DNA from: a virus
DNA length: 24,106 bases
Virus record (IMG/VR): IMGVR_UViG_3300044613_000130
Span: 1-24,106 of that record
Reading direction: 5' to 3' (one strand)
Every line of letters begins with the position of its first letter. Position 1 is the first letter of the stretch. A program made the translations under genes and the position numbers. This document shows positions 2,834-22,298 of the stretch, one piece after another. Under the pieces are notes generated by a model that had not been told where the DNA came from, searched no databases, and saw only the letters and a list, made by a program, of their open reading frames with translations.

Positions 2834-3345
2834 TGGCCGGCGAAACCCCCAAAACAAGATCTTACGCACAGCCCCGAACAACAATGACCGGTAAGATCGT
2901 GCGAGATGACGACGCCGCCGTAGGTGTTGGAGACAGAAACCTTTTTTTAGGGCCTCTGGATCAAGGGTTTATGGGGCGATCGCCACGCGAATACGGTCTA
3001 TATGTTCCGAATCCCGATGTCACGCCGCAGGCTAATCCGGCCGCTGTGCGGGCCTATACGCGCAACGCGCCGTATATGGAACAGTTTATGTCTGATCCGC
3101 AAGCTATGATGCGAGAAATGAATAATATACAAAACGAGCTAAGAAAAAATCCTGACGATGTAATTAATCAATACAGGCTGCGCGTTTTACGACAGGCTAT
3201 GGGCGACGTATTTGGTATGCAAGCGCCGGAGGATATATATAGCTTTACCCGCGCGCAGGCTCCTGTAACGCCGAGCGATACTTACGAAGGCGCTCGTACG
3301 ACTACACCGCAATCGCCGCCCACTATGCCCCGTCGGGGGCGCTAA
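2833..3345 (+). CDS. Hypothetical protein, possible head-associated
   Basis: This 170-residue protein is not recognised. It is hydrophilic, has no membrane segment, and ends in a Pro/Thr/Arg-rich tail. A central region around NNIQNELRKNPDDV is probably helical. The start chosen is ATG 2833, which shares its A with the terminase stop (TAATG), a junction used repeatedly in this operon. An in-frame ATG at 2818 would add five residues and cannot be excluded. Codon use is less GC-rich than in the nuclease half of the terminase just upstream, suggesting a separate module. Position between terminase and portal suggests a packaging or head role, but only by context. Confidence 0.6.
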   Translation: MAGETPKTRSYAQPRTTMTGKIVRDDDAAVGVGDRNLFLGPLDQGFMGRSPREYGLYVPNPDVTPQANPAAVRAYTRNAPYMEQFMSDPQAMMREMNNIQNELRKNPDDVINQYRLRVLRQAMGDVFGMQAPEDIYSFTRAQAPVTPSDTYEGARTTTPQSPPTMPRRGR

Positions 3346-3608
3346 TGGTTAAAAAATCTGTTTCTCTGTCTGTTGGCCGTGGTGAGAAGCTGTCCACCAA
3401 GGCGGGCGCTGGCCTGACCGCCAAGGGTCGGGCCAAGTATAACGCGGCGACGGGGAGCAAGCTGAAGGCTCCAGCGCCCAACCCCAAGACCGAGGCTGAC
3501 AAAGGCCGGAAGGCGAGCTTCTGCGCGCGGATGGGCGGCGTTGTCGCCAAGTCGAAGAACGCAGAGCGGGCCAAGGCGTCAATGCGGAGATGGAACTGTG
3601 GCAAGTAA
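3345..3608 (+). CDS. Small basic protein, DUF6321-like
   Basis: This 87-residue protein is very rich in Lys, Arg, Ala and Gly (about 22 basic against 4 acidic residues). The pattern LTAKGRAKYNAATGSKL, then SFCARM and a terminal RRWNCGK, matches the phage family I know as DUF6321, whose function is unknown. Two cysteines (in FCARM and WNCGK) sit in the conserved positions. The start ATG overlaps the previous stop as TAATG. The 3' end overlaps the next gene by 11 bases. Strong positive charge and position between packaging and portal genes suggest nucleic-acid binding, which is an inference only. Confidence 0.75.
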   Translation: MVKKSVSLSVGRGEKLSTKAGAGLTAKGRAKYNAATGSKLKAPAPNPKTEADKGRKASFCARMGGVVAKSKNAERAKASMRRWNCGK

Positions 3609-3747
3609 ACCGGGGCTCTACGCCAACATCCACGCCAAACGGGCGCGCATCAAGGCCGGCTCGGGCGAGAAGATGCGCAAACCGGGCGCTGAGGGTGCGC
3701 CAACGGCCAAGGCGTTCAAGCAGTCAGCCAAGACGAGGAAAAAGTAA
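3598..3747 (+). CDS. Very small basic protein
   Basis: This is a 49-residue, strongly basic protein (about 14 Lys/Arg against 2 Glu) with no predicted membrane segment. GTG 3598 is chosen because GGAG (3586-3589) lies 8 bases upstream; a longer reading from 3541 would run through the body of the previous gene. I recall similar short phage proteins with the pattern KPGLYANIHAKR and GEKMRKPG, all of unknown function. The 11-base overlap with the previous gene and the TAATG junction with the next indicate translational coupling. Confidence 0.7.
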   Translation: MASKPGLYANIHAKRARIKAGSGEKMRKPGAEGAPTAKAFKQSAKTRKK

Positions 3748-4175
3748 TGGCGAATACTAAGCCAATCGGCGTCGCTTATGAAGATCAAGATATTATTGGC
3801 GCAACGACTGTATCGGCCACTAATATCCTGTCAACAGGCGCGATTGGATATGCGGCCGGCGCATATGGAAATGTGACGCAGCAGAACAACAAGACAACAG
3901 CGGTGACGGTCAACGCATCGTCAGGCCAAATCATTACGGCTAATTCACAACTTGCGCCTAGTGCTAACGCGCTGTTTAAAGTAAACAATAACGTTGTATC
4001 TTCTAAAGATGTGGTAATTGTCAGCCCTGCAACGGGCGGCACAAACGGGGCCTATAACGTATTTATAACATCTATTGACGATGGGTTTTTTTACATTGAG
4101 ATTAAGAACGTAACGAACAACGCCTATTCTGAATCAATCCGCCTTAACTTTGCAATCTTACATACGGTGACATAA
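3747..4175 (+). CDS. Putative structural protein, paralogous N-terminus with the gene at 11321
   Basis: This 142-residue protein is rich in Asn, Thr, Val and Ala and looks all-beta, as expected for a virion surface or decoration protein. Its start MANTKPIGVAYEDQDIIG resembles the start of the gene at 11321 (MPNTKAVGVAFSDPELVSG), so both may use the same docking segment. The rest of the two proteins differs. No enzyme motif is seen. The start forms TAATG with the previous stop. Codon use is more AT-rich than in the portal gene downstream. A decoration or fibre-base role is inferred, not shown. Confidence 0.65.
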   Translation: MANTKPIGVAYEDQDIIGATTVSATNILSTGAIGYAAGAYGNVTQQNNKTTAVTVNASSGQIITANSQLAPSANALFKVNNNVVSSKDVVIVSPATGGTNGAYNVFITSIDDGFFYIEIKNVTNNAYSESIRLNFAILHTVT

Positions 4176-4176
4176 C

Positions 4177-4341
4177 ATGCCTCTAGTCAAAAGCACCAGC
4201 AAAGAAGCCTTCCGTAAGAACGTAAAGGCTGAGATGAAGGCTGGAAAGCCGCAGAAACAGGCAGTTGCGATTGCCTACTCGACCAAGCGCGCGGCGGCCA
4301 AGAAGCCGGCTATGAAAGGCAAGTCTAGTGGCTGCAAGTGA
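4177..4341 (+). CDS. Very small basic protein (54 residues)
   Basis: This short gene encodes 54 residues with about 15 Lys/Arg against 2 Glu and one Cys near the end. The core NVKAEMKAGKPQKQAVAIAY matches a short conserved pattern I recall from many phage genomes, always without known function. It begins one base after the previous stop and its end overlaps the portal start by 14 bases. With the genes at 3345 and 3598 it makes a set of three tiny basic proteins just before the portal. Nucleic-acid binding or an internal head role is a guess from charge and position. Confidence 0.72.
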   Translation: MPLVKSTSKEAFRKNVKAEMKAGKPQKQAVAIAYSTKRAAAKKPAMKGKSSGCK

Positions 4342-6460
4342 TGTCAGGGACGCCGGCAAGGTAGCCAGCGCCGACGAGGGCGACGAGCGCCTGTCGACGC
4401 TGCGGCATCGCTTTACGGTAGCGATGTCCGCCTACAGCGACACCCGCGAGGACGAGCTGGACGATCTGCGGTTTATGGCGGGCTCGCCGGACAACCAGTG
4501 GCAGTGGCCGGCTGATGTATTAGCTACCCGAGGCGCGGTGCAGGGGCAGACGATCAACGCGCGGCCGTGCCTGACGATCAACAAGCTGCCGCAGCACGTT
4601 CGGCTCGTGACCAACGAGCAGCGGCAGAACCGGCCGCAGGGCAAGGTCATACCGGCCGACGAGAACGCGGACCCGGCGGTGGCCGAGGTGTTCGACGGCA
4701 TCATCAAGCACATCGAGTATCTGTCCGACGCGGACGTGGCCTATGACACGGCCTGCGACAATCAGGTCACATATGGCGAGGGCTATATCCGCCTGATAAC
4801 GGAATATTGCCGCGAGGATTCCTTCGATCAGGACATCAAGATCGTCCGGGTCAGGAACAGTTTCAGCGTCTACATGGACCCGATGATTCAGGATCCGTGC
4901 GGTTCGGACGCGGAATGGTGTTTCATCACGGAAGACATCGCCAAGTCGGAGTATGAGCGGCTATATCCCGACGCAACGCCGATCTCGACGATGATGGCGC
5001 AGGGCGTCGGCGACCAGTCGCTGAGCATGTGGCTGTCGCAGGAGACCATCCGCATCGCGGAGTATTTCTACGTCGAGCATAAAAAGGCGACGCTGAACCT
5101 TTACCCGGACAATATCACGGCGTTCGACGGCACGCCGGAGGACAAGCGGCTGAAGTCGGCCTATGGCAAGCCGCTGCGCAGCCGGCAGAGCGACCGCCGG
5201 CAGGTGAAGTGGGTCAAGACTAACGGCTACGAGATCCTCGAAGAGCGGGACTGGGCGGGCAAGTGGATCCCGGTCGTCCGCGTTATCGGCAACGAGTTCG
5301 AGGTCGACGGCCAGCTCTACATCTCTGGTCTGGTGCGCAACGCGAAAGATGCGCAGCGCATGTATAACTACTGGGTCAGTCAGGAAGCAGAGATGCTCGC
5401 GCTGGCCCCGAAAGCGCCCTTCATTGGCTACGGCGGCCAGTTTGAAGGCTATGAAATGCAGTGGAAGACGGCCAATACGAACAACTGGCCGTATCTGGAG
5501 GTCAACCCGGATGTTACTGACGGAGCTGGAAGCCCTCTGCCGTTGCCCGAGCGCGCTCAGCCGCCTCTGGCGCAAACCGGCCTCATACAGGCGAAAATGG
5601 GTGCTGGCGAAGACATTAAGTCGACAACGGGTCAATACGACAGTTCAATTGGTGCGACCAGTAACGAAAGAACGGGTCGTGCTATATTGGCACGCGAGCG
5701 GCAGGGCGACACGTCAACCTTCCATTACGTAGATAATATGAGCCGCGCGGTGCGCTACATCACGCGGCAGATGGTCGACCTTATCCCGAAAATCTACGAC
5801 ACACAGCGCGTCGCGCGGATCGTGGGTATCGACGGCGAAGTTGGGATGGTCAAGATCAACCCGATGCAGCCGGAGCCGGTGCGGATTATCAAGGATCCGA
5901 TCACGGGCGAGACCATCGACAAGATCTACAACCCGAACGTCGGTCTGTATGACGTGATGGTTACGACCGGCCCGAGCTACATGACCAAGCGGCAGGAGTC
6001 CATGGACGCGATGGCGACCATCCTCCAGTCCAACCCGCAGCTCTGGACGGTCGCAGGCGATCTGTTCATCAAAAACATGGATTGGCCGGGGGCGCAGGAG
6101 ATGGCGGCGCGCTTCGCCAAGATCCTCGATCCGAAGGTGCTGGAAGGCTCTGACGAGTCGCCTGAAGCGCAGATGATGCGCGCTCAGATGAACGACATGG
6201 CCAACCAGATGGAGCAGATCACGGGCCTTGTGACGCAGCTCCAGCAGTCCTATGACATGCAAAAGCTCCAGATTGACCAGCAGAACAGCCAAATCAAGGC
6301 TTACGAAGCCGAGACGAAGCGGATTCAGGTCACGCAGCCGGCCATGACGCCCGAGCAGATCCAAGATATTGTGCAAGGCACCATCGCTGCGGCTCTGGAC
6401 ATGGGCGACATCGTGCCGGCCATGCCGCAACAGCAGGTTTTACCGGGGTTTGAGCAATGA
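4328..6460 (+). CDS. Portal protein, P22 gp1-like
   Basis: This 710-residue protein should form the dodecameric ring at the capsid vertex through which DNA enters and leaves. P22 gp1 has 725 residues. Recognisable portal features include an N-terminal wing-like region with DNQVTYGEGYIRL, a central SIGATSNERTGRAI segment and a long helical, Gln/Met-rich C-terminus (about 610-700) resembling the P22 barrel. GTG 4328 is the start because GAAAGG (4314-4319) lies 8 bases upstream and the nearby ATG at 4342 is out of frame. It overlaps the small gene before it by 14 bases and the next gene through ATGA. Third-position GC is high throughout. Confidence 0.92.
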   Translation: MAASDVRDAGKVASADEGDERLSTLRHRFTVAMSAYSDTREDELDDLRFMAGSPDNQWQWPADVLATRGAVQGQTINARPCLTINKLPQHVRLVTNEQRQNRPQGKVIPADENADPAVAEVFDGIIKHIEYLSDADVAYDTACDNQVTYGEGYIRLITEYCREDSFDQDIKIVRVRNSFSVYMDPMIQDPCGSDAEWCFITEDIAKSEYERLYPDATPISTMMAQGVGDQSLSMWLSQETIRIAEYFYVEHKKATLNLYPDNITAFDGTPEDKRLKSAYGKPLRSRQSDRRQVKWVKTNGYEILEERDWAGKWIPVVRVIGNEFEVDGQLYISGLVRNAKDAQRMYNYWVSQEAEMLALAPKAPFIGYGGQFEGYEMQWKTANTNNWPYLEVNPDVTDGAGSPLPLPERAQPPLAQTGLIQAKMGAGEDIKSTTGQYDSSIGATSNERTGRAILARERQGDTSTFHYVDNMSRAVRYITRQMVDLIPKIYDTQRVARIVGIDGEVGMVKINPMQPEPVRIIKDPITGETIDKIYNPNVGLYDVMVTTGPSYMTKRQESMDAMATILQSNPQLWTVAGDLFIKNMDWPGAQEMAARFAKILDPKVLEGSDESPEAQMMRAQMNDMANQMEQITGLVTQLQQSYDMQKLQIDQQNSQIKAYEAETKRIQVTQPAMTPEQIQDIVQGTIAAALDMGDIVPAMPQQQVLPGFEQ

Positions 6461-13102: not shown

Positions 13103-14830
13103 ATGAAGACGCCGGTCCTCGGCTCCAGCTATGTCCTGCGCAGCCCTAATGCGGCTGACAGCCGCATGGTCAATCTCTATCCTGAGATTGTGCCAGAAGG
13201 GGGCAAAGAGGCCGCTTGGCTTCAGCGAGCGCCGGGGCTCCGTCAGCTCGCCGTGTTTCCGACCGGCCCTGTGCGGGGGCTTTGGCAGTATGGCGACTAT
13301 GGTTACGCCGTCGCGGGCACCAAGCTATACCGTGTAGACACGGATTGGAGTTACCACGAACTCGGCACAGTAGCCGGCGCAGGCCCGGTCAACATGGTCG
13401 ATAACGGCACGCAGCTATTCATCGCTGCGGGCGCTAACGGCTACATCTACAACAACACCAACGTAACGCTGAGCTGCAATACGACCAACGGTTCGCCCAC
13501 TGTTACGACCGCTGATACATCTCTTATCTGGGTCGGCCTCCCTGTCACGGGCTCGGGCATTCCGGCCAGCACGACGGTCTCCAGTATTACGGACGGAACG
13601 ACTTTTGTTTTGTCGGCCAACGCTACAGCCACGGCGACGACGGATCTGACGTTCTCGCCGCTCTTCAGCGACATCACGGACCCGGATTTTCCGGGCGCGA
13701 TTGGCGTCGGGTTTATTGACGGCTATTTTGTATTCAACGAGCCCAACAGCCAGAAATTCTGGGTGACTGAGGCCTATAACGGCCTGTCCATCGACGCGCT
13801 GGACTTCGCCAGCGCGGAAGGCTCGCCGGACAATCTGGTCACGCTGATCGTTGACCATCGAGAAATCTGGCTGTTTGGCGTCAACACTGTCGAGGTCTGG
13901 TATAACGCCGGGCTCCCTGACTTTCCGCTTGCGCGCATCCAAGGCGCGTTTAATGAAATAGGTTGCCTCGCCGCCTATTCGGTCGCCAAACTCGACAATG
14001 GTCTGTTCTGGCTCGGGCGCGACGCGCGCGGTAACGGTATCGTCTACAGGTCCAAAGGTTACTCGGGCGAGCGCGTCTCGACGCACGCGGTCGAGTGGCA
14101 GATACAGCAATACACCACGCTTAACGACGCCGTGGCCTACACCTACCAGCAGGACGGCCACAGCTTCTACGTGCTGAATTTTCCGACCGCCAATACGACG
14201 TGGGTCTATGACGTGGCGACCGGCGTCTGGCATGAGCGCGCCGGGTGGGAAAACAACAACTTCACGCGCCATCGCGGCAACTGCCAGATGAACTACAACA
14301 ACGAAATCGTCATCGGCGATTACGTCGGCGGCGGGTTGTTTGCTTATGATTCAACAGTTTATACCGAAGCGGGCTCTATCCAGAAGTGGCTGCGGTCGTG
14401 GCGCGCGCTGCCTACGGGCCAGAATGATCTGAAGCGCACGACGCAACATAGTCTGCAACTTGACTGCGAGGCGGGTGTAGGTCTTACCGGCGACGACTAT
14501 CAATATCTGGACGGCCAACATCTGACTACTGAGTTAGGTGAGTGGCTGTTGACCGAGAATGGCGATTACATAGTAACGCAAAGCGCGCCTCTGGCTCCGG
14601 GCGTCAATCCGCAGGTCATGCTGCGCTGGTCGGATGACGGTGGCCATACGTGGTCAAACGAGCATTGGAAGTCGATGGGCCGCGTCGGGCAATACGGCTA
14701 CCGAACCATCTGGCGGCGGCTTGGCATGACATTGAAAATCCGCGACCGCGTGTATGAGGTGTCAGGGACCGATCCGGTCAAGATCGCGATCATGGGCGCT
14801 GAACTTATATTGAGCCCAACGAATGCCTGA
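13103..14830 (+). CDS. Tail accessory factor (packaged-DNA stabilisation), P22 gp10-like
   Basis: This 575-residue protein should form the hub joining the gp4 ring to the tail tip and fibres. P22 gp10 has 472 residues. Family-like features include the N-terminal NAADSRMVNLYPEIVPEG and RAPGLRQLA, the repeated beta-propeller-like strands, ITDPDFPGAIGVGFIDGYFV (about 191-210), and a C-terminal Asp-box-like SDDGGHTW (510-517). Two insertions explain the extra length: a Thr/Ser-rich beta module at about 120-184 and a short LTTELGEWLLTENGDYI module at about 474-490. GGAGG (13092-13096) lies 6 bases before the ATG. The end overlaps the next gene by 8 bases. Confidence 0.88.
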   Translation: MKTPVLGSSYVLRSPNAADSRMVNLYPEIVPEGGKEAAWLQRAPGLRQLAVFPTGPVRGLWQYGDYGYAVAGTKLYRVDTDWSYHELGTVAGAGPVNMVDNGTQLFIAAGANGYIYNNTNVTLSCNTTNGSPTVTTADTSLIWVGLPVTGSGIPASTTVSSITDGTTFVLSANATATATTDLTFSPLFSDITDPDFPGAIGVGFIDGYFVFNEPNSQKFWVTEAYNGLSIDALDFASAEGSPDNLVTLIVDHREIWLFGVNTVEVWYNAGLPDFPLARIQGAFNEIGCLAAYSVAKLDNGLFWLGRDARGNGIVYRSKGYSGERVSTHAVEWQIQQYTTLNDAVAYTYQQDGHSFYVLNFPTANTTWVYDVATGVWHERAGWENNNFTRHRGNCQMNYNNEIVIGDYVGGGLFAYDSTVYTEAGSIQKWLRSWRALPTGQNDLKRTTQHSLQLDCEAGVGLTGDDYQYLDGQHLTTELGEWLLTENGDYIVTQSAPLAPGVNPQVMLRWSDDGGHTWSNEHWKSMGRVGQYGYRTIWRRLGMTLKIRDRVYEVSGTDPVKIAIMGAELILSPTNA

Positions 14831-15428
14831 TATTGCAAACAATACGCAGATCCCGGCGGCGCGTGTTCCGATATGGGATAAGCTGACTAATTTCGTCACC
14901 CGCGAATGGTATAGGTGGTTTTATAACACCTACATCGCGGTCGAGGCTGGCCGGCGGTATGGCTCATTCTACAGCACGACGACGTTCACGCCCGCTGCGA
15001 CAAATACGGCCTACGCGCTGACCTTTAACCAGACATACACCCGCGCTGACGGGTCCAATGTAGTCTACGGCGTCTATATCGGGACGCCATCGTCGAGGAT
15101 ATATGTAGACAACGTGGCCACGTATAATTTTCAGTTTTCGGCGCAACTCAGGCAGACTTCTGGCGGCACGCATAACATTTATATCTGGCCCCGCGTGAAC
15201 GGCGTCAACGTCGATGACTCGGCCACGCAGATCACGATGAGCGGCGGGTCAAATACGGCCACTGTCGCCGCGTGGAATTTCGTGCTAAATCTTCAGGCGG
15301 GCGATTATTTTGAGCTGATCTATTCGGTAAGCAGCACAAATATTCAGATCCCCTATGTGGCGGCGGCTAGCCCGGTCCCGGCTATTCCTTCGGTCATCCT
15401 GACCGTAACCAGTTGTGTAGGTGCATAA
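14823..15428 (+). CDS. Tail tip or knob protein with C1q/TNF-like domain (probable)
   Basis: This 201-residue protein has a short N-terminal segment (IPAARVPIWDKLTNFVTREWYRW in outline, residues about 11-33), probably for docking, then a jelly-roll-like beta domain. YGSFYSTTTFTPAATNTAYA, VDNVATYNFQFSAQL, IWPRVNGVNVDDS and LQAGDYFELIYSVSS are typical of C1q/TNF-like phage knob domains. It occupies the place of the P22 tail needle gene (26) just after gp10. The Sf6 needle carries a TNF-like tip knob, so this could be a needle analogue, although a long coiled-coil shaft is missing. It overlaps gp10 by 8 bases and the next gene through TAATG. Confidence 0.65.
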   Translation: MPDIANNTQIPAARVPIWDKLTNFVTREWYRWFYNTYIAVEAGRRYGSFYSTTTFTPAATNTAYALTFNQTYTRADGSNVVYGVYIGTPSSRIYVDNVATYNFQFSAQLRQTSGGTHNIYIWPRVNGVNVDDSATQITMSGGSNTATVAAWNFVLNLQAGDYFELIYSVSSTNIQIPYVAAASPVPAIPSVILTVTSCVGA

Positions 15429-17125
15429 TGGCTGTCATCACCCCCATACCCAAGACCCAGTTCATCGGCGCTAATGGCGCTCCTCTGGTCGGCGGTAAGG
15501 TCTACACTTATCAGGCCGGCACGACGAGCCCGCAGGTTACATATACGGATTCGACCGGATCGTCAGCTAACACGAACCCGATCATTCTCGACTCGCGCGG
15601 CGAGGCGAATATCTGGCTCGGTGAGGCGACGTATAAATTCAAGCTGACCGACGCCAATGATGTTGAGATCTGGACGGTCGACTATATCTCCGCCCCGACG
15701 ACGGCCGTCTCGCCGGTTCTGACCGGCAACGTCACGATCTCGACCGACTCGTCTGGCCCGGCGCTTAAGATTACCCAGACCGGCACGGGCGACGTTCTGC
15801 GTGTGCAGGATAGCGTCGACCCTGACCTTACGCCTTTCGTTATCAACGCGGCCGGTCTGGTCGGGCTTGGGACCGTCGCCCCGGCCGAAGCGCTGGACAT
15901 AGACAACAACGGGCGCATACAGTTTTCGGCTAACGGCACCCCGCGCACGGTCATCTCGGCCGACGCCACCAACTCAACCGTGGATGTCCGTGACGCCCGC
16001 AATCTTGTCCTGCGCGTTAATGGCGGGGACCGGCTGACGATTGCCAGCACGGGCATGACATCGCTCGCGAATGGTCTGACCGTGTCGGCCAGCGGCGCGG
16101 CGATCACGGGTAACAGCTCAGTTACGGGTACGTTCACTTCGTCCGGCGCGCTCACCGTATCGTCCGGCGGCGCTACCATATCTGCCGGAGGACTGACCGT
16201 GTCTGCTGGCGGTGCAGCCATCACGGGCAACAGCTCGGTCACTGGAACGCTTGGCGTTAGCAGCACACTGACGGCTTCTAATGGACTGACCGTGTCGGCT
16301 GGCGGTGCGGCCATTACGGGCAACAGTTCTGTTACGGGCACGCTAGGCGTTAGCAGCACACTGACGGCTTCTAATGGACTGACCGTGTCGGCTGGCGGTG
16401 CGGCCATTACGGGCAACAGTTCTGTTACGGGCACGCTAGGCGTTAGCAGCACACTGACAGCTTCTAATGGACTGACCGTGTCTGCTGGCGGTGCGGGTAT
16501 AACAGGGACGCTCACGGCTAACAGCGGCGTTTCTGTTCCTTCTGGCGGCGTCAACGTCACGGGGACGGTCACAGCCACGACGTTCTCGGGCGCGTGGGCG
16601 AATATCCCTGCCGGCACCGTTATGCTGTTCGTGCAGACTTCGGCTCCAACGGGATGGACGAAATCCACCGCGCATAACGATAAAGCACTGCGCGTGGTCT
16701 CCGGCTCAGCCTCGTCGGGCGGCAGCGTCGCGTTTACAACGGCGTTTGCTTCGCAGGCTGTGACCGGCACGGTTGCCAGCTATACGCTGACGACGGCGGA
16801 CATCCCGTCGCATAATCATAGTGCCACCAGCACCAGCACCAGCACCAGCTCGGTAACAGATTCGGGGCACACGCATAATTATGATAGATCTGGCTCTAAC
16901 ACGGGCGTTTATCAACCGGGCGCTGTCGGCGCTACCGGATCGCTTAACTATACCGCCACCGCTACGACCAGCGCCACTACAGGAATTAGCGTTAGCACAT
17001 CGACTTCCACATCTACGACTATCGGCAATACGGGCGGCGGCGGTGGTCATAGCCACGGCTTCTCCGCACCTAATATAAACCTCGCCGTTCAGTATGTAGA
17101 CGTAATCATAGCGACGAAAGACTAA
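15428..17125 (+). CDS. Tail fibre with P22-tailspike-like N-terminus and collar-like tip
   Basis: This 565-residue fibre has three parts. Residues 1-90 (TPIPKTQFIGANGAPLVGGK, then VYTYQAGTT and GEANIWLGEATYKFKLTD) match the particle-binding domain of P22-type tailspikes and related fibres. Residues about 200-390 form a Gly/Thr/Ser/Ala shaft with three full 31-residue repeats. Residues about 393-565 form a tail-collar-like tip (IPAGTVMLFVQTSAPTGWTK) with three HxH motifs at H462/H464, H481/H483 and H541/H543, the metal-binding signature of T4 gp12-type fibres. It probably binds the host receptor. ATG 15428 is chosen over an upstream TTG because it forms TAATG with the previous stop. Confidence 0.87.
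   Translation: MAVITPIPKTQFIGANGAPLVGGKVYTYQAGTTSPQVTYTDSTGSSANTNPIILDSRGEANIWLGEATYKFKLTDANDVEIWTVDYISAPTTAVSPVLTGNVTISTDSSGPALKITQTGTGDVLRVQDSVDPDLTPFVINAAGLVGLGTVAPAEALDIDNNGRIQFSANGTPRTVISADATNSTVDVRDARNLVLRVNGGDRLTIASTGMTSLANGLTVSASGAAITGNSSVTGTFTSSGALTVSSGGATISAGGLTVSAGGAAITGNSSVTGTLGVSSTLTASNGLTVSAGGAAITGNSSVTGTLGVSSTLTASNGLTVSAGGAAITGNSSVTGTLGVSSTLTASNGLTVSAGGAGITGTLTANSGVSVPSGGVNVTGTVTATTFSGAWANIPAGTVMLFVQTSAPTGWTKSTAHNDKALRVVSGSASSGGSVAFTTAFASQAVTGTVASYTLTTADIPSHNHSATSTSTSTSSVTDSGHTHNYDRSGSNTGVYQPGAVGATGSLNYTATATTSATTGISVSTSTSTSTTIGNTGGGGGHSHGFSAPNINLAVQYVDVIIATKD
16190..16498 (+). repeat. 93-bp in-frame tandem repeat in the tail fibre
   Basis: Units run 16190-16282, 16283-16375 and 16376-16468, then a partial copy to about 16498. 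The second and third differ at one visible base (ACGGCTTC versus ACAGCTTC near the end); the first is more diverged at synonymous sites. Each encodes 31 residues beginning GLTVSAGGAAITGNSSVTGT. Near identity implies recent duplication or continuing homogenisation. Confidence 0.9.
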
Positions 17126-17393: not shown

Positions 17394-19079
17394 ATGGACC
17401 CTTTCACCTTAGCCCTTCTCGGCAGTTCCGCCGCCAGCGGTCTGGGGTCCGTTCTAGGCGCGCGCGCTTCGGGACAGGCGGCGCAAGCACAATCCCAAGC
17501 TGCTATGTTGAGCGCGGTTCTTCAGGCGCAGGCGCAGGAGCGCGCAAGACAAGACATCCTTCAGGGCAGGGCCAGCGGCGAGCAGGCTCTTAGATCCGCC
17601 GCCCAGCCAACATTGGAGGCTCTACGCGCTTCGACCGCGCGCGCTGAAGAGGTCCGGCGGGCGGGCGCTGGCGAGGCTGCGGCCGAGCTGGAGCGTGGGC
17701 GCGCGGCGTCTATCTCTCCGTTATTGGCGGCGCAGCAGGCGCAGCAGCAAGCGCTTTTAGGCGCTACCGGCGGTCAGTTGGAAGCGCTTTACGGCGGCGC
17801 TGGGCTGGGAATGCAGGCGCTTCGTCAGGCTGAGCTTGGACAGCTCGGCGCGTTACGAGGCGGAGCGGGTCAAGCTGCCGGCGCAATTCAGCGCGGTATG
17901 GGGCAGGGCGCAGGCGCGCTCACGGGGGCAGAACGCCGCGCGGCGGGAGAACTGACCGCAGGCGAGATGGGCGGCCTTGGCGCACTAGGCGGCGCGTTTG
18001 GTATGCAAGCCGGCTATCAACAGCCATATGTGTCGACAGGCGCAGGCGCGCAGAATCAGCTTGCGGCGCTTTACGGCGTCGGCGGCGATCCTAACGCGCC
18101 GGGCTATGGCTCGTTTATGCGTCAGCCGACGCTCGAAGAACTTCAGATGGACCCCGGCTACGCGTTCCGCATGGCTGAAGGCCAGCGGGCTATGCAGTCG
18201 ACGCTTGGCTCGTCGGGTATGCGCGGCTCGGGCGCAGCGCTGAAAGCTGCGACTCGCTACGGGCAGGAAGCTGGCAGTCAGGAATATCAGAACGCCTACG
18301 CGCGGTTCATGGCAAACCGTCAAGCGGCACTGTCCGGCCTTCAGGGCCTTGCGGGCTCGGGTCAGGGTGCGGCAAATGTAATGACGCAGGCTGCGGGTGG
18401 TCTTGGCACCGGAGCGGCAGGGCTTATGCAGACCGGCGCTACAGGCCGTGCGGGGCTTGCGTCCCAGACCGGTGCTAATCTCGCGAACATCTATGGAACC
18501 GGCGCACAGAACCTTGCGAACATCTATGGTGCGCAAGGCCAGAATGTCGCGGGTGTGCTGGGTCAGACGGGCGCTAATGTCGCTAATATTGCAGGCACGA
18601 CAGGTCAGAACGTCGCGGGTGCGTTGGGTCAGACAGGCACTAACCTTGCGAATGTCTATGGCACGACGGGCCAGAACGTCAGTAATATTCAGGGCGCGAC
18701 CGGGCAGAACCTTGCCGGGCTACGCGGCGCGCTCGGCACGGGGCTGTCGGCGGACATTCTTGGCAGCGGCCAGAACATCGCGAATGTCTACTCTGGACTT
18801 GGCACCGGTCTAGCCAATCTTGCCACGGGCGCGGCCGTCCCGCTCGCTAATCTGGCGACCGGCGGCGGCCAAGCGCTCGCGACCGGGCTGGAGAACGCCG
18901 CGCAGGCCCGCGCGTCCGGCTATATGGGCGGCGCGTCGGCGCTGTCTCAGGCGCTGGGCAATGTTGGGCAGAACGCGCTGGCCTATAGCATGATGGACCG
19001 CATGTATGGTCAAGCGCGGCCGGCGACGGCGCAACCGTTCAACCGAAATTATGGTATGGGTTACGGCCCGCAGCTTTGA
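17394..19079 (+). CDS. DNA ejection protein built on 11-residue repeats
   Basis: This 561-residue, Ala/Gly/Gln-rich protein is a probable internal virion protein ejected with the DNA, corresponding to the P22 gp7/gp20/gp16 set. The centre (about 252-320; MDPGYAFRMAEGQRAMQSTL, then MRGSGAALKAATRYGQ and QEYQNAYARFMANR) is a conserved segment I recognise from phage ejection-type proteins. Two blocks flanking it have a strict 11-residue period: residues 121-208 (eight units starting L/I and mostly ending A) and about 338-502 (units like GQNLANIYGAQ). The N-terminus has a short hydrophobic stretch. AGGAG (17383-17387) lies 6 bases before the ATG. The role is inferred from family and position. Confidence 0.78.
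   Translation: MDPFTLALLGSSAASGLGSVLGARASGQAAQAQSQAAMLSAVLQAQAQERARQDILQGRASGEQALRSAAQPTLEALRASTARAEEVRRAGAGEAAAELERGRAASISPLLAAQQAQQQALLGATGGQLEALYGGAGLGMQALRQAELGQLGALRGGAGQAAGAIQRGMGQGAGALTGAERRAAGELTAGEMGGLGALGGAFGMQAGYQQPYVSTGAGAQNQLAALYGVGGDPNAPGYGSFMRQPTLEELQMDPGYAFRMAEGQRAMQSTLGSSGMRGSGAALKAATRYGQEAGSQEYQNAYARFMANRQAALSGLQGLAGSGQGAANVMTQAAGGLGTGAAGLMQTGATGRAGLASQTGANLANIYGTGAQNLANIYGAQGQNVAGVLGQTGANVANIAGTTGQNVAGALGQTGTNLANVYGTTGQNVSNIQGATGQNLAGLRGALGTGLSADILGSGQNIANVYSGLGTGLANLATGAAVPLANLATGGGQALATGLENAAQARASGYMGGASALSQALGNVGQNALAYSMMDRMYGQARPATAQPFNRNYGMGYGPQL
17754..18017 (+). repeat. 33-bp-period coding repeat, first block (8 hendecads)
   Basis: Residues 121-208 of the ejection protein divide into eight 11-residue units without gaps: LLGATGGQLEA, LYGGAGLGMQA, LRQAELGQLGA, LRGGAGQAAGA, IQRGMGQGAGA, LTGAERRAAGE, LTAGEMGGLGA, LGGAFGMQAGY. 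DNA identity between units is low, so the repeat is old and kept at protein level. Confidence 0.75.
18405..18866 (+). repeat. 33-bp-period coding repeat, second block
   Basis: Residues 338-491 have the same 11-residue period. The clearest eight units start at residue 360 (GANLANIYGTG, AQNLANIYGAQ, GQNVAGVLGQT, GANVANIAGTT, GQNVAGALGQT and so on), with looser units on both sides and traces to about residue 530. The units here are more alike in DNA than those of the first block, suggesting more recent expansion. Confidence 0.8.
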
Positions 19080-19089
19080 GGTCTGACTA

Positions 19090-20724
19090 ATGGCCGTTCG
19101 ATATGACATTGCGTCTATGGTGCCCCAAATGAGTGGCGGCGGCATAGATCCGCTTAACATGATGGCTCAGTTGCGTCAGCAAGAATACCAGCAGGCGCAG
19201 CTTGCGCGTATGGCGCAGAGCATGGACGTGCAGGATCTTCAGGCGCAGATTGCCGCGCAGCGCGAGCTTCGCCAAGCCGAAGCAGCACAGCGTCAGGCGG
19301 GACTATATGGCGCGCAGCAGCAGGAAGCGGAGCAGAAAATACAGGCCGGCAAGATCGACCTTTATAAGAATATGTTCCAGAATTTCGTCAACGACCAAAA
19401 GTCGCTCGATAGTTTTGTGGCTATGATGGAGCGCGACTTTCCGCAGGGCGTCGCAGCGTTCAAAGGCAAGACTTATTCGGACGATTGGAAACAGGGGCTT
19501 TTGAAGCCTGAAGGCGACTATATGGAAGCCGGCGGCGAAGTATATCAGAAAACCGCGCGAGGACTTAGGCCCGCACCTATCATCCAGCCCGAAGCCATCC
19601 CCGGCCCGCGTCAGGACATGGCGACGGCGCTTATTAAAGAGCGCGAAGGGTTTATTGAGAAGCCGAAATACGATGTGAACGCCTATCGTGCCGGGTATGG
19701 TAGCGACACCGTGACGTTGCCGGACGGCACTGTCCAGAAGGTGACGCCCGGTATGCGCGTGTCGCCTGAGGATGCTGAACGCGATCTTCAGCGGCGTATT
19801 CAGACCGAGTTTGTCCCGAAGGCTGCGGCCAAAGTCGGCGAAGAAGTTTGGTCTACGCTGCCTGAGAATACGCGCGCGGCGCTGACTTCGGTCGCATATA
19901 ACTACGGCACGGTCCCCAGCCGTATCGTCCCGGCTGTGCAGTCCGGCAACCCTGAGACTATCGCGCGGGCTATCGAGAGTCTGGCCGGCGATAACAAGGG
20001 TATCAACGCCGGGCGACGTATGCAGGAAGCTAATATCGCTCGCGGCACGGGTATGCCCGGCTCGCGCGCGGTGCCGGCTTTTGCCGCTGGCGGCGCGCCG
20101 TCGTTCATGGGCGGCCCCGAGATCACGCCGCCGATCAATATGATGGCCCCGCCGGCTGCACCTATGAACGCGATGGCTGCGCCGGCTATGCCGACGCCGC
20201 CTGCGCCGCAGCCAGCTCAGCCGATCACGGTCGGCACCAAGACGCAGGTCAAAGGCCAGAGCAACGTCGAAACGACGCTCGGTAAGATGATGGACAAATA
20301 CAACAAGCTCGATCAGTTGGAGGCTATCCCCAGCTCTTCGCGCGGCGCGCTGTCCAACATCGCCGCTTATGCGGCTGGCACGACTGTCGGGCAGGAAGTC
20401 GAGAAGGCCCGCGCAACGCCGGCTCAGCAGCAGCGTAACGAGTTAAAGGCGCTTCGTCGGTCGCTTCTGAAAGACATCATGTCTGCTACCGGCGCATCCG
20501 CCAAAGAACTCGACTCTAATTTTGAGTTGAAAAGTATGCTGGAGTCGTTGTCTGACGAGACTATGGACATTGATTCCGTCCGTCGTATTATCGCTGATCT
20601 TTCAGCGCGCTACGGCCGTGGCGGTGTCTCTGCGCCAGAAGAAGCGGCTCCTGCGCCGGCTGCGCCGGCCGCTGCGGCAGGGCCGCAGGTCATTGATTTC
20701 AGCCAGCTTCCCAAGAGGCGCTAA
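19090..20724 (+). CDS. DNA ejection protein with internal lysozyme (GH24-like) domain
   Basis: This 544-residue protein combines an N-terminal Gln-rich coiled coil (about 23-90), a lysozyme-like domain (about 176-320), a Pro/Ala/Met-rich linker (about 325-380) and a helical C-terminus. In the lysozyme domain the Glu of KEREGF (E186) and the Asp of KYDVN (D195) have the 9-residue spacing of T4 lysozyme E11 and D20. GYGSDTV and ALTSVAYNYG also fit. At the third catalytic position (Thr in the TIG motif of T4) the sequence reads RAG, with R200. It is probably ejected and opens the peptidoglycan locally. GAGG (19078-19081), spanning the previous stop, precedes the ATG by 8 bases. It follows one ejection-type gene and overlaps another. 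Confidence 0.82.
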   Translation: MAVRYDIASMVPQMSGGGIDPLNMMAQLRQQEYQQAQLARMAQSMDVQDLQAQIAAQRELRQAEAAQRQAGLYGAQQQEAEQKIQAGKIDLYKNMFQNFVNDQKSLDSFVAMMERDFPQGVAAFKGKTYSDDWKQGLLKPEGDYMEAGGEVYQKTARGLRPAPIIQPEAIPGPRQDMATALIKEREGFIEKPKYDVNAYRAGYGSDTVTLPDGTVQKVTPGMRVSPEDAERDLQRRIQTEFVPKAAAKVGEEVWSTLPENTRAALTSVAYNYGTVPSRIVPAVQSGNPETIARAIESLAGDNKGINAGRRMQEANIARGTGMPGSRAVPAFAAGGAPSFMGGPEITPPINMMAPPAAPMNAMAAPAMPTPPAPQPAQPITVGTKTQVKGQSNVETTLGKMMDKYNKLDQLEAIPSSSRGALSNIAAYAAGTTVGQEVEKARATPAQQQRNELKALRRSLLKDIMSATGASAKELDSNFELKSMLESLSDETMDIDSVRRIIADLSARYGRGGVSAPEEAAPAPAAPAAAAGPQVIDFSQLPKRR

Positions 20725-22298
20725 TGGACGTTCGGCTTCCTGACGGCACGATTGTAAAAAATGTGCCGGATGACATAACGCAGGAAGACTTGATGGAGCG
20801 CGTCGGCATGATGCGTCAGCCATCTGAAGGTCTGACTATGGGCCGCGCGGCGGAAGTCGCGGGCGGCGCTGTCGCGCCTATCGCTGCCGCAGCCGGGTTG
20901 GGCGGCCTCGTCGCAGGCCCGGTGGGCGCTGTCGCGGCTCCTGCTGCGCTCGGCGTCGCGGATCTGGCAACAACACTCTATAATCTGGCCGCGCCCAAGA
21001 TGGGCACGTCGCAGGTCCGCACGCCGTCTGACATCGCGCGCCAGTATCTGACGCCGGAATCATTCAAACCCCGCACTCAGGCTGAAGAACTGTTGGCTGC
21101 TGCGGCTGAAGGCGGCGCGGGGGCGTTGACGGGCGCGGGCGCAGCGAACGTGCTGGCGCGCCGCGCGGCCCCCGGCGTCGTGCGTAACGTCATGACCACC
21201 ATGGGCGAGCGTCCGCTTGTGCAGGCAGGCGCTGGCGCGGGCGCAGCGGCCGCCCCGGTTCGCGCTGAGCAGATGGGCGTCGAGGATCCTCGCGCGCTGC
21301 TGGCGACGAGCCTTGTTGGCGGTCTGGCCGGTGCGCGCGGCGCAGCCGGGCTACAGCGTGGCGTCGAGTCCGCGACAGCGGCGGGGCAGCGCGGGCTCAT
21401 GGGTCTGGTCGGCAAACCCCCAACAACCGAAGCGCTCGGGCAGCGCGCCTCCGAGTCCTTTGAACGCGCCACAACTATGGGCGTGCAATATGACCCGAAG
21501 GCGTATCAGTCATTTGCGGGCGGTCTGGAATCTAGCCTGAAGGGATACGATCCTGACTTCAGCAAGTTCGCCGATGTTAAAGTCGCCATTAACAAGCTGA
21601 AAGATCTAGACAGCCAGCCGTTGACGATTGAGCGGCTGCACAACGCGCGGCAAATGCTGGGCGTTTTGCGTGGTGACAGCGAGAAAGACGTGCGCCGGAT
21701 GGCCGGCATCCTGACGGATCGTCTGGATAGTTTCATTACCGACAGCAAGAACGCCATCGGGGCTAATTCTCAAGAAGCCGCCGACGCGCTTATGTCCGGT
21801 ATCCGTGACTACCGCATGATGTCAAAGAGTTCGGAGATCGAGCGTCTTATCGACCGCGCCAATCTGTCGGGCGGATCAGCCGAAAACATCGAGTCCCAGT
21901 TCCGTTCGTTGGCAAAGAACGAAGGCCGTATGCGCAAGTTTACGCCTGACGAACAGACGATGATCCGACGCATCGCCAAAGGCGAAGAGGGCTTGTCTCT
22001 CGCCAATCTCGCCAGCATGGTCTCCCCGACGCGTAACCCTACTATGCTCGCTTCGCAGGCGCTTGTCGGCGGGTATGGATTGTCCAGTGACGATCCTTAC
22101 GCAGTCTTTGGTGCGGGCGGAGCGGCGTTGGCCGGCGCGAGCGGCAGGGCTGTCCGTAACGCTTTGGCGCGGCGGGCGGCGTCCAACGTCGCGGCTATGA
22201 CGCGCGGCGCGCCGACAGCCGTTCCTTTCTCAGTTCAATTTGCGCCGCTGGCCGCTCCTATTGCGACACAGGGCGTCAACGCAATGGCGAGGCGATGA
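20724..22298 (+). CDS. DNA ejection protein, third of the set
   Basis: This 524-residue protein begins with a short module common at the start of phage virion proteins (VRLPDGTIVKNVPDDITQED, residues 3-22). An Ala/Gly-rich hydrophobic region follows (about 40-88 and 105-220) that could insert in or cross a membrane. The second half (about 240-430) is polar and helical (TIERLHNARQMLGVLRGDSE and similar). This layout, the length and the position after two other ejection-type proteins fit a P22 gp16/gp20-like role in passing DNA through the envelope. The start forms TAATG with the previous stop and the end overlaps the next gene by ATGA. No catalytic motif is seen. Confidence 0.72.
   Translation: MDVRLPDGTIVKNVPDDITQEDLMERVGMMRQPSEGLTMGRAAEVAGGAVAPIAAAAGLGGLVAGPVGAVAAPAALGVADLATTLYNLAAPKMGTSQVRTPSDIARQYLTPESFKPRTQAEELLAAAAEGGAGALTGAGAANVLARRAAPGVVRNVMTTMGERPLVQAGAGAGAAAAPVRAEQMGVEDPRALLATSLVGGLAGARGAAGLQRGVESATAAGQRGLMGLVGKPPTTEALGQRASESFERATTMGVQYDPKAYQSFAGGLESSLKGYDPDFSKFADVKVAINKLKDLDSQPLTIERLHNARQMLGVLRGDSEKDVRRMAGILTDRLDSFITDSKNAIGANSQEAADALMSGIRDYRMMSKSSEIERLIDRANLSGGSAENIESQFRSLAKNEGRMRKFTPDEQTMIRRIAKGEEGLSLANLASMVSPTRNPTMLASQALVGGYGLSSDDPYAVFGAGGAALAGASGRAVRNALARRAASNVAAMTRGAPTAVPFSVQFAPLAAPIATQGVNAMARR

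Follow-up and report, generated by a model that had tools for sequence, protein, structure and literature searches.

Why would an ejection protein of a short-tailed phage carry two long arrays of 11-residue repeats, one on each side of a conserved core, and what can these arrays tell about the course of its chain? Few parts of phages are so poorly understood as ejection proteins, since they can be observed in just two transient states. The window, that is the whole stretch of DNA analysed here (24,106 nucleotides, a 24.1-kb IMG/VR record), contains podovirus genes for portal, major head protein, Ad3, Hc3 and collar/fibre, the gene in question and two large genes. The ORF at 17394-19079 (+) encodes a 561-aa protein, and residues 121-491 correspond exactly to 17754-18866, the segment which the initial annotation had attributed to an ejection protein. 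That attribution agrees with a profile search, where the middle of the protein (residues 205-398) matches phrog_598, 'DNA ejection', with E 2.7e-10; P22 gp7 used as a query finds the same profile with E 2e-95, so that phrog_598 represents the P22 gp7 family. The order phrog_637 (Ad3), phrog_578 (Hc3), collar/fibre, phrog_598 and two large genes is that of P22 (Ad3, Hc3, tail gene(s), gp7, gp20, gp16), and on the P22 map the 561-aa gene occupies the gp7 slot. Judging from profile and gene order, this is a P22 gp7-like protein of the DNA-ejection family, predicted to be packaged in the virion and ejected into the host; Pfam and NCBIfam searches returned no family for it. The features referred to below are as follows.

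13103-14830 (+): head closure protein Hc3, P22 gp10-like, a synteny marker (phrog_578, E 1.2e-127).
17394-19079 (+): CDS of the 561-aa gp7-like ejection protein with two hendecad arms (phrog_598; 107 unique full-length homologues).
17394-17459 (+): residues 1-22, hydrophobic N-terminus of small residues (GRAVY +1.03).
17460-17753 (+): residues 23-120, base-proximal part of arm 1, an ordinary Ala-rich predicted helix (AlphaFold2 puts a helix at 22-133, with most blocks from residue 31 onward at pLDDT 74-93).
17754-18017 (+): array 1, the distal part of arm 1, with eight 11-residue units over residues 121-208 (autocorrelation; predicted helix 140-227).
18018-18383 (+): core or tip, residues 209-330, conserved, a cassette exchanged by recombination (phrog_598 match; DNA identity between A- and B-type genes confined to the core).
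18405-18866 (+): array 2, forming arm 2, with about fourteen 11-residue units over residues 338-491 (z11 = 10.5; predicted helices 281-388 and 394-477, with low confidence from about residue 450).
18867-19076 (+): residues 492-561, C-terminal module of a conserved anchor LENAAQARASGYMGGASAL (499-517) and a variable tail (family A alignment).
19090-20724 (+): gene in the P22 gp20 position, with a phage lysozyme domain (Pfam PF00959, E 1.3e-8 at 184-297; phrog_3572).
20724-22298 (+): gene in the P22 gp16 position, third in the ejection block, without family match and assigned by position only.

By its lysozyme domain, the second ejection protein (19090-20724) seems to be the seat of muralytic activity. 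Residues 1-22 of the 561-aa protein may possibly serve as a membrane anchor; this N-terminal DPFTLALLGSSAAS (17394-17459) is similar to DPLAIMGSSAAS, a stretch close to the C-terminus of T7 gp14, a likeness that may be due to chance or to a comparable membrane segment. The collar/fibre gene (15413-17125) harbours 3.3 near-identical tandem copies of a 93-bp unit (31 residues) at 16190-16496, with 94% matches, likely a recent copy-number variation.

The arrays had been described as gap-free 11-residue units flanking a conserved core, with a peak at 11 expected in the autocorrelation of the protein, and this is what we find. Compared with shuffled sequences, the best lags of the whole protein are 22, 11, 33, 44 and 55 (z 11.3, 9.3, 7.9, 6.9 and 5.4); residues 121-210 give z11 = 3.5 and z22 = 5.8, residues 338-491 give z11 = 10.5 and z22 = 11.0, and a peak at 11 is absent from the core (211-337). 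Eight gap-free units with Leu/Ile at position 1 fill residues 121-208, and about fourteen, of the form QNLANIYGTTG, cover 339-492, with weaker units continuing in phase to about residue 525. The units are indeed Gly-rich and low in charge (Gly 31% in array 1 and 23% in array 2; charged residues 11% and 2%, respectively). When the DNA is compared at a lag of 33 nt, the first and second codon positions give a strong signal and the third a weak one, therefore the period is kept at the level of the protein; TRF reports a 66-bp unit at 18510-18680, alongside the lag of 22 that is often the best one. An 11/3 helix, as suggested initially, fits array 2, where the hydrophobic moment has its maximum at 98.5 degrees; the picture is less clear in array 1, where 98.2 degrees is only a secondary peak and the maximum lies at 131. 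On the 11/3 wheel array 2 presents three faces, one of Asn/Gln, one of Leu/Ile/Val/Tyr and one of Gly/Ala, and the Gln, Asn and Asn of the unit fall within 0-98 degrees, which places the amide side chains on one face. Both arrays were checked for a column of Trp/Phe at a fixed unit position, and neither has one.

Scans of IMG/VR, genome contigs and two phage records yielded 107 unique full-length proteins with the core. Arrays occur in close as well as in distant homologues, and the number of units varies among them at a constant spacing, where irregular spacing would have spoken against the repeat. P22 gp7 itself (229 aa, z11 0.8) and cultured Vibrio, Thalassomonas and Rhodoferax relatives are without arrays, and a search of plasmids found no relatives. 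Homologues from Acinetobacter prophages are few, with C-termini too different for a comparison of arm lengths; in one genome of the Acinetobacter group (L235) the homologous region lies inside an open stretch of 665 residues with one internal TAA.

The main finding is that the length of both arms shifts equally across about 70 unique homologues. Arms were measured between fixed anchors, D1 from the start to the core and D2 from the core to the C-terminal anchor, and only unique proteins were counted. For family A (n=37) D1 ranges from 96 to 230 and D2 from 90 to 224, with r = 0.99987 and a slope of 1.002, the difference between the two having a standard deviation of 0.64 residues against an arm variation of 134 residues. 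Family B (n=21) gives D1 of 75-318 and D2 of 91-333, r = 1.00000, slope 0.994 and a standard deviation of 0.47 residues over 243 residues. Ten more short members of family A lie within a few residues of its line, with L186 (protein 3327-4208) as the one clear exception: its N-arm is short as in L189 and its C-arm long as in L188, a mismatch of 7 residues, so that it looks like a recombinant. A third, distant lineage (L051/L229) differs by +11/+11 in the two arms.

Relatedness was taken into account in several ways. Phylogenetic independent contrasts on the core tree give r 0.9994 (A) and 0.99999 (B); among disjoint related pairs that differ in length, 17/17 are matched within 2 residues, by steps of 7, 11, 22, 33, 44, 66, 77 and about 133 residues; permutation of collapsed length levels returned 0/100,000 for family A (10 levels) and 1/100,000 for family B (8 levels). 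In pairwise alignments the same is seen as gaps that come in twos (22+22, 44+44 and 66+66), before and after the core, and internal gaps of at least 5 residues between close homologues are multiples of 11 in 105 of 108 cases. L003, for instance, is about 94% identical to the 561-aa protein outside gaps, yet it is 22 residues shorter in each arm. Seven residues make two turns of a helix and eleven make three; steps of 7 and 11 are whole turns and therefore preserve the helical phase at almost every step. Array-less Vibrio phages carry an 11-residue insertion beside the tip exit that is unmatched in the N-arm, therefore the matching rule covers the arms and not the tip. The two ejection genes that follow downstream do not visibly change in length with the arms.

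The core behaves separately from the arms. Three times (L042/L031, L041/L057 and L130/L169) it has been swapped between A- and B-type genes, with 84-87% DNA identity by blastn over about 290-390 bp of exchanged core and neither flanking arm alignable, and the N-terminal type is paired with the matching C-terminal type in 58/58 proteins. From these sequence comparisons, the ends belong together and the middle is an exchangeable cassette.

The simplest architecture that would demand arms of equal length is a hairpin of antiparallel helices whose tip is the core, and the exact 1:1 matching in whole-turn steps suggests that the two helices are rigid and lie next to one another. We propose, with a probability of roughly 0.72, that the protein is a gp7-like hairpin of antiparallel helical arms which has been lengthened stepwise. 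The chain would run out along helical arm 1 (the N-terminus and array 1), turn in the conserved core and return along arm 2, from array 2 to the C-terminal anchor. With antiparallel and adjacent arms, a change in one would be viable only with an equal change in the other, and arm length would shift by full turns of the helix, in steps of 7 or 11 residues and mostly of 22.

The two long helices are those of a model. An AlphaFold2 run with 56 sequences for the 561-aa protein predicts two helices (22-133 and 140-227) before a small tip and two more (281-388 and 394-477) after it, so that each side extends over close to 30 nm (about 206 and 197 residues, respectively); the layout predicted for a family B protein (L026) is similar. 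Residues 31-120 and much of the tip are predicted with good confidence, array 1 with moderate and late array 2 with low confidence, and with a pTM of 0.31-0.34 and block pLDDT of 35-74 in array 2 the packing of the arms is not defined by the prediction. Against the hairpin, besides the mismatch in L186 and the unmatched insertion of the Vibrio phages, it should be noted that both arrays are Gly-rich, poor helix formers in water. Among solved structures (PDB) there was no significant match by sequence or by fold, and predicted viral structures gave matches to other 'DNA transfer proteins'.

The closest published architecture is that of T7 gp14, which after ejection consists of two antiparallel helices with a short loop, six copies being found in the extended outer-membrane channel (PMC11784390). 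Peru-2 P2_38 is likewise a hairpin, for which the unresolved termini are presumed to go into the membrane (PMC13320782); P22 gp7 is listed in a review as a gp14-like protein (PMC8954989). Two long helical arms of nearly equal length joined at a tip, published for T7 gp14 and P2_38, are what we propose here by analogy, and we suggest that the 561-aa protein is a channel protein belonging to their functional class. The arms there have about 50-60 residues and a short loop, whereas those of the 561-aa protein would have about 200, with a tip domain and 11-residue units, and sequence homology was undetected: hhalign against T7 gp14 gave a probability of 0.1, in a weak comparison (core Neff 1.9) that also missed P22 gp7. 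With P22 gp7 (phrog_598; 'DNA transfer protein p32') the protein shares the core profile and the gene position before two further ejection genes; it differs by its 561 residues and two arrays, against 229 aa and no period of 11, and by the lysozyme domain in the next gene.

Following the same analogy, several copies may assemble after exit from the virion into an alpha-helical channel which extends the short tail, like ejected T7 gp14. The termini would lie in the membrane, and the tip would be an exchangeable contact site. Such an oligomer, its conduit for DNA and its orientation we infer from the T7 system. Lining of a DNA conduit, one of the two functions considered in the initial annotation, is the one that we favour as possible. 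Arm length would then set the length of the channel, about 206 residues x 1.5 A or roughly 31 nm here. Much more tentatively, and as something quite possible if short of probable, we suggest a DNA channel of evolvable length, with arms lengthened in lockstep by hendecads from about 60 to >300 residues per arm (roughly 9-45 nm), a swappable tip and a reach tuned to the host surface or envelope.

The main rival to the intrachain hairpin, which we consider unlikely though worth attention, is that the arms pair between neighbouring subunits of an alpha-helical barrel, arm 1 of one chain with arm 2 of the next. It would impose the same constraint on length, and barrels of the phiX174 H tube type do set adjacent chains side by side; that tube, with hendecads and an amide-lined lumen (PMC7354561), resembles our case as a DNA-translocating phage protein with hendecad helices and an Asn/Gln-rich face. 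It comes, however, from an unrelated virus and has a single helix per chain in a decamer, three hendecads followed by heptads and no hairpin, whereas here each chain has two matched arms. What speaks against the rival is that in T7 gp14, once ejected, the hairpin forms within a single chain (PMC11784390). Antiparallel packing within one chain is a strong inference from the arm lengths and from this analogy.

It is a good deal less probable that both arms independently track one external length, for example that of the periplasm or a tail channel, without contact between them. Some tape measure proteins do vary in the number of their 11-residue repeats (PMC3271669), in multiples of 33 bp, as the arms do here. 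An external ruler would nevertheless tolerate a temporary mismatch, and close relatives match to the residue, even in 7-residue steps; the Trp/Phe at fixed positions typical of tape measure arrays are missing. Siphovirus tape measures have a single such marked array in a long-tailed phage and no second matched array. The identification of the 561-aa protein as a tape measure protein was itself rejected, for want of these markers and for its podovirus gene order.

Still more improbable is the idea, also present in the initial annotation, of a flexible chain whose amphipathic 11/3 segments fold on a membrane as in synuclein or apolipoproteins. The period of 11 and the moment of array 2 agree with it, but synuclein and apolipoprotein 11-mers are charged, rich in Lys/Glu, whereas array 2 is almost uncharged, with 2% of charged residues, and array 1 has 11%; nor does it give any reason for the exact match of two separate arrays in whole-turn steps. 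Synuclein-type 11-mers were rejected on both counts, low charge and arm matching. It is scarcely credible that the matching is an artefact of how repeats were assembled, of which start codons were chosen or of kinship among the proteins, for while repeats are prone to mis-assembly and many contigs are near-duplicates, unit copies differ in DNA, unique proteins were counted, the match survives phylogenetic contrasts and disjoint pairs, identical proteins were found again in several independent metagenomes, and mis-assembly would not equalise both arms.

Returning to the intrachain hairpin, matched arms are strong sequence-only evidence on the fold of this chain, and the natural variants change one physical dimension with the tip nearly constant. 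This makes a long-standing question testable, namely what channel reach a short-tailed phage requires and what sets the length of the channel. If the arms pair, few examples of co-evolving length would be as clean as this one, which may be compared with the arms of SMC proteins, whose length distribution is quantised (PMC5344682). SMC/Rad50 share with our protein the two arms flanking a hinge and the quantised lengths (PMC5344682); they differ as cellular proteins with heptad coiled coils, ATPase heads and an unrelated function. The arrangement had been thought undescribed, which holds for matched arms, since in the open-licence literature we found no report of ejection proteins with 11-residue arms or with arms matched in length, but not for 11-residue arrays of phages as such, which are known from the phiX174 H tube and some tape measure proteins.

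Two further observations concern variants of the ejection block. The C-terminal part of the L046 protein (3875-4723) resembles what we take to be an S74-type intramolecular chaperone domain fused to the ejection core. In four Vibrio phages (L238, L240, L241 and L244) the third gene of the ejection block is replaced by a gene of about 8-11 kb, 'DarB-like' in VvAW1, and differences of 11 or 18 residues in the tip-exit region go with changes of 5 or 10 residues in the tip loop.
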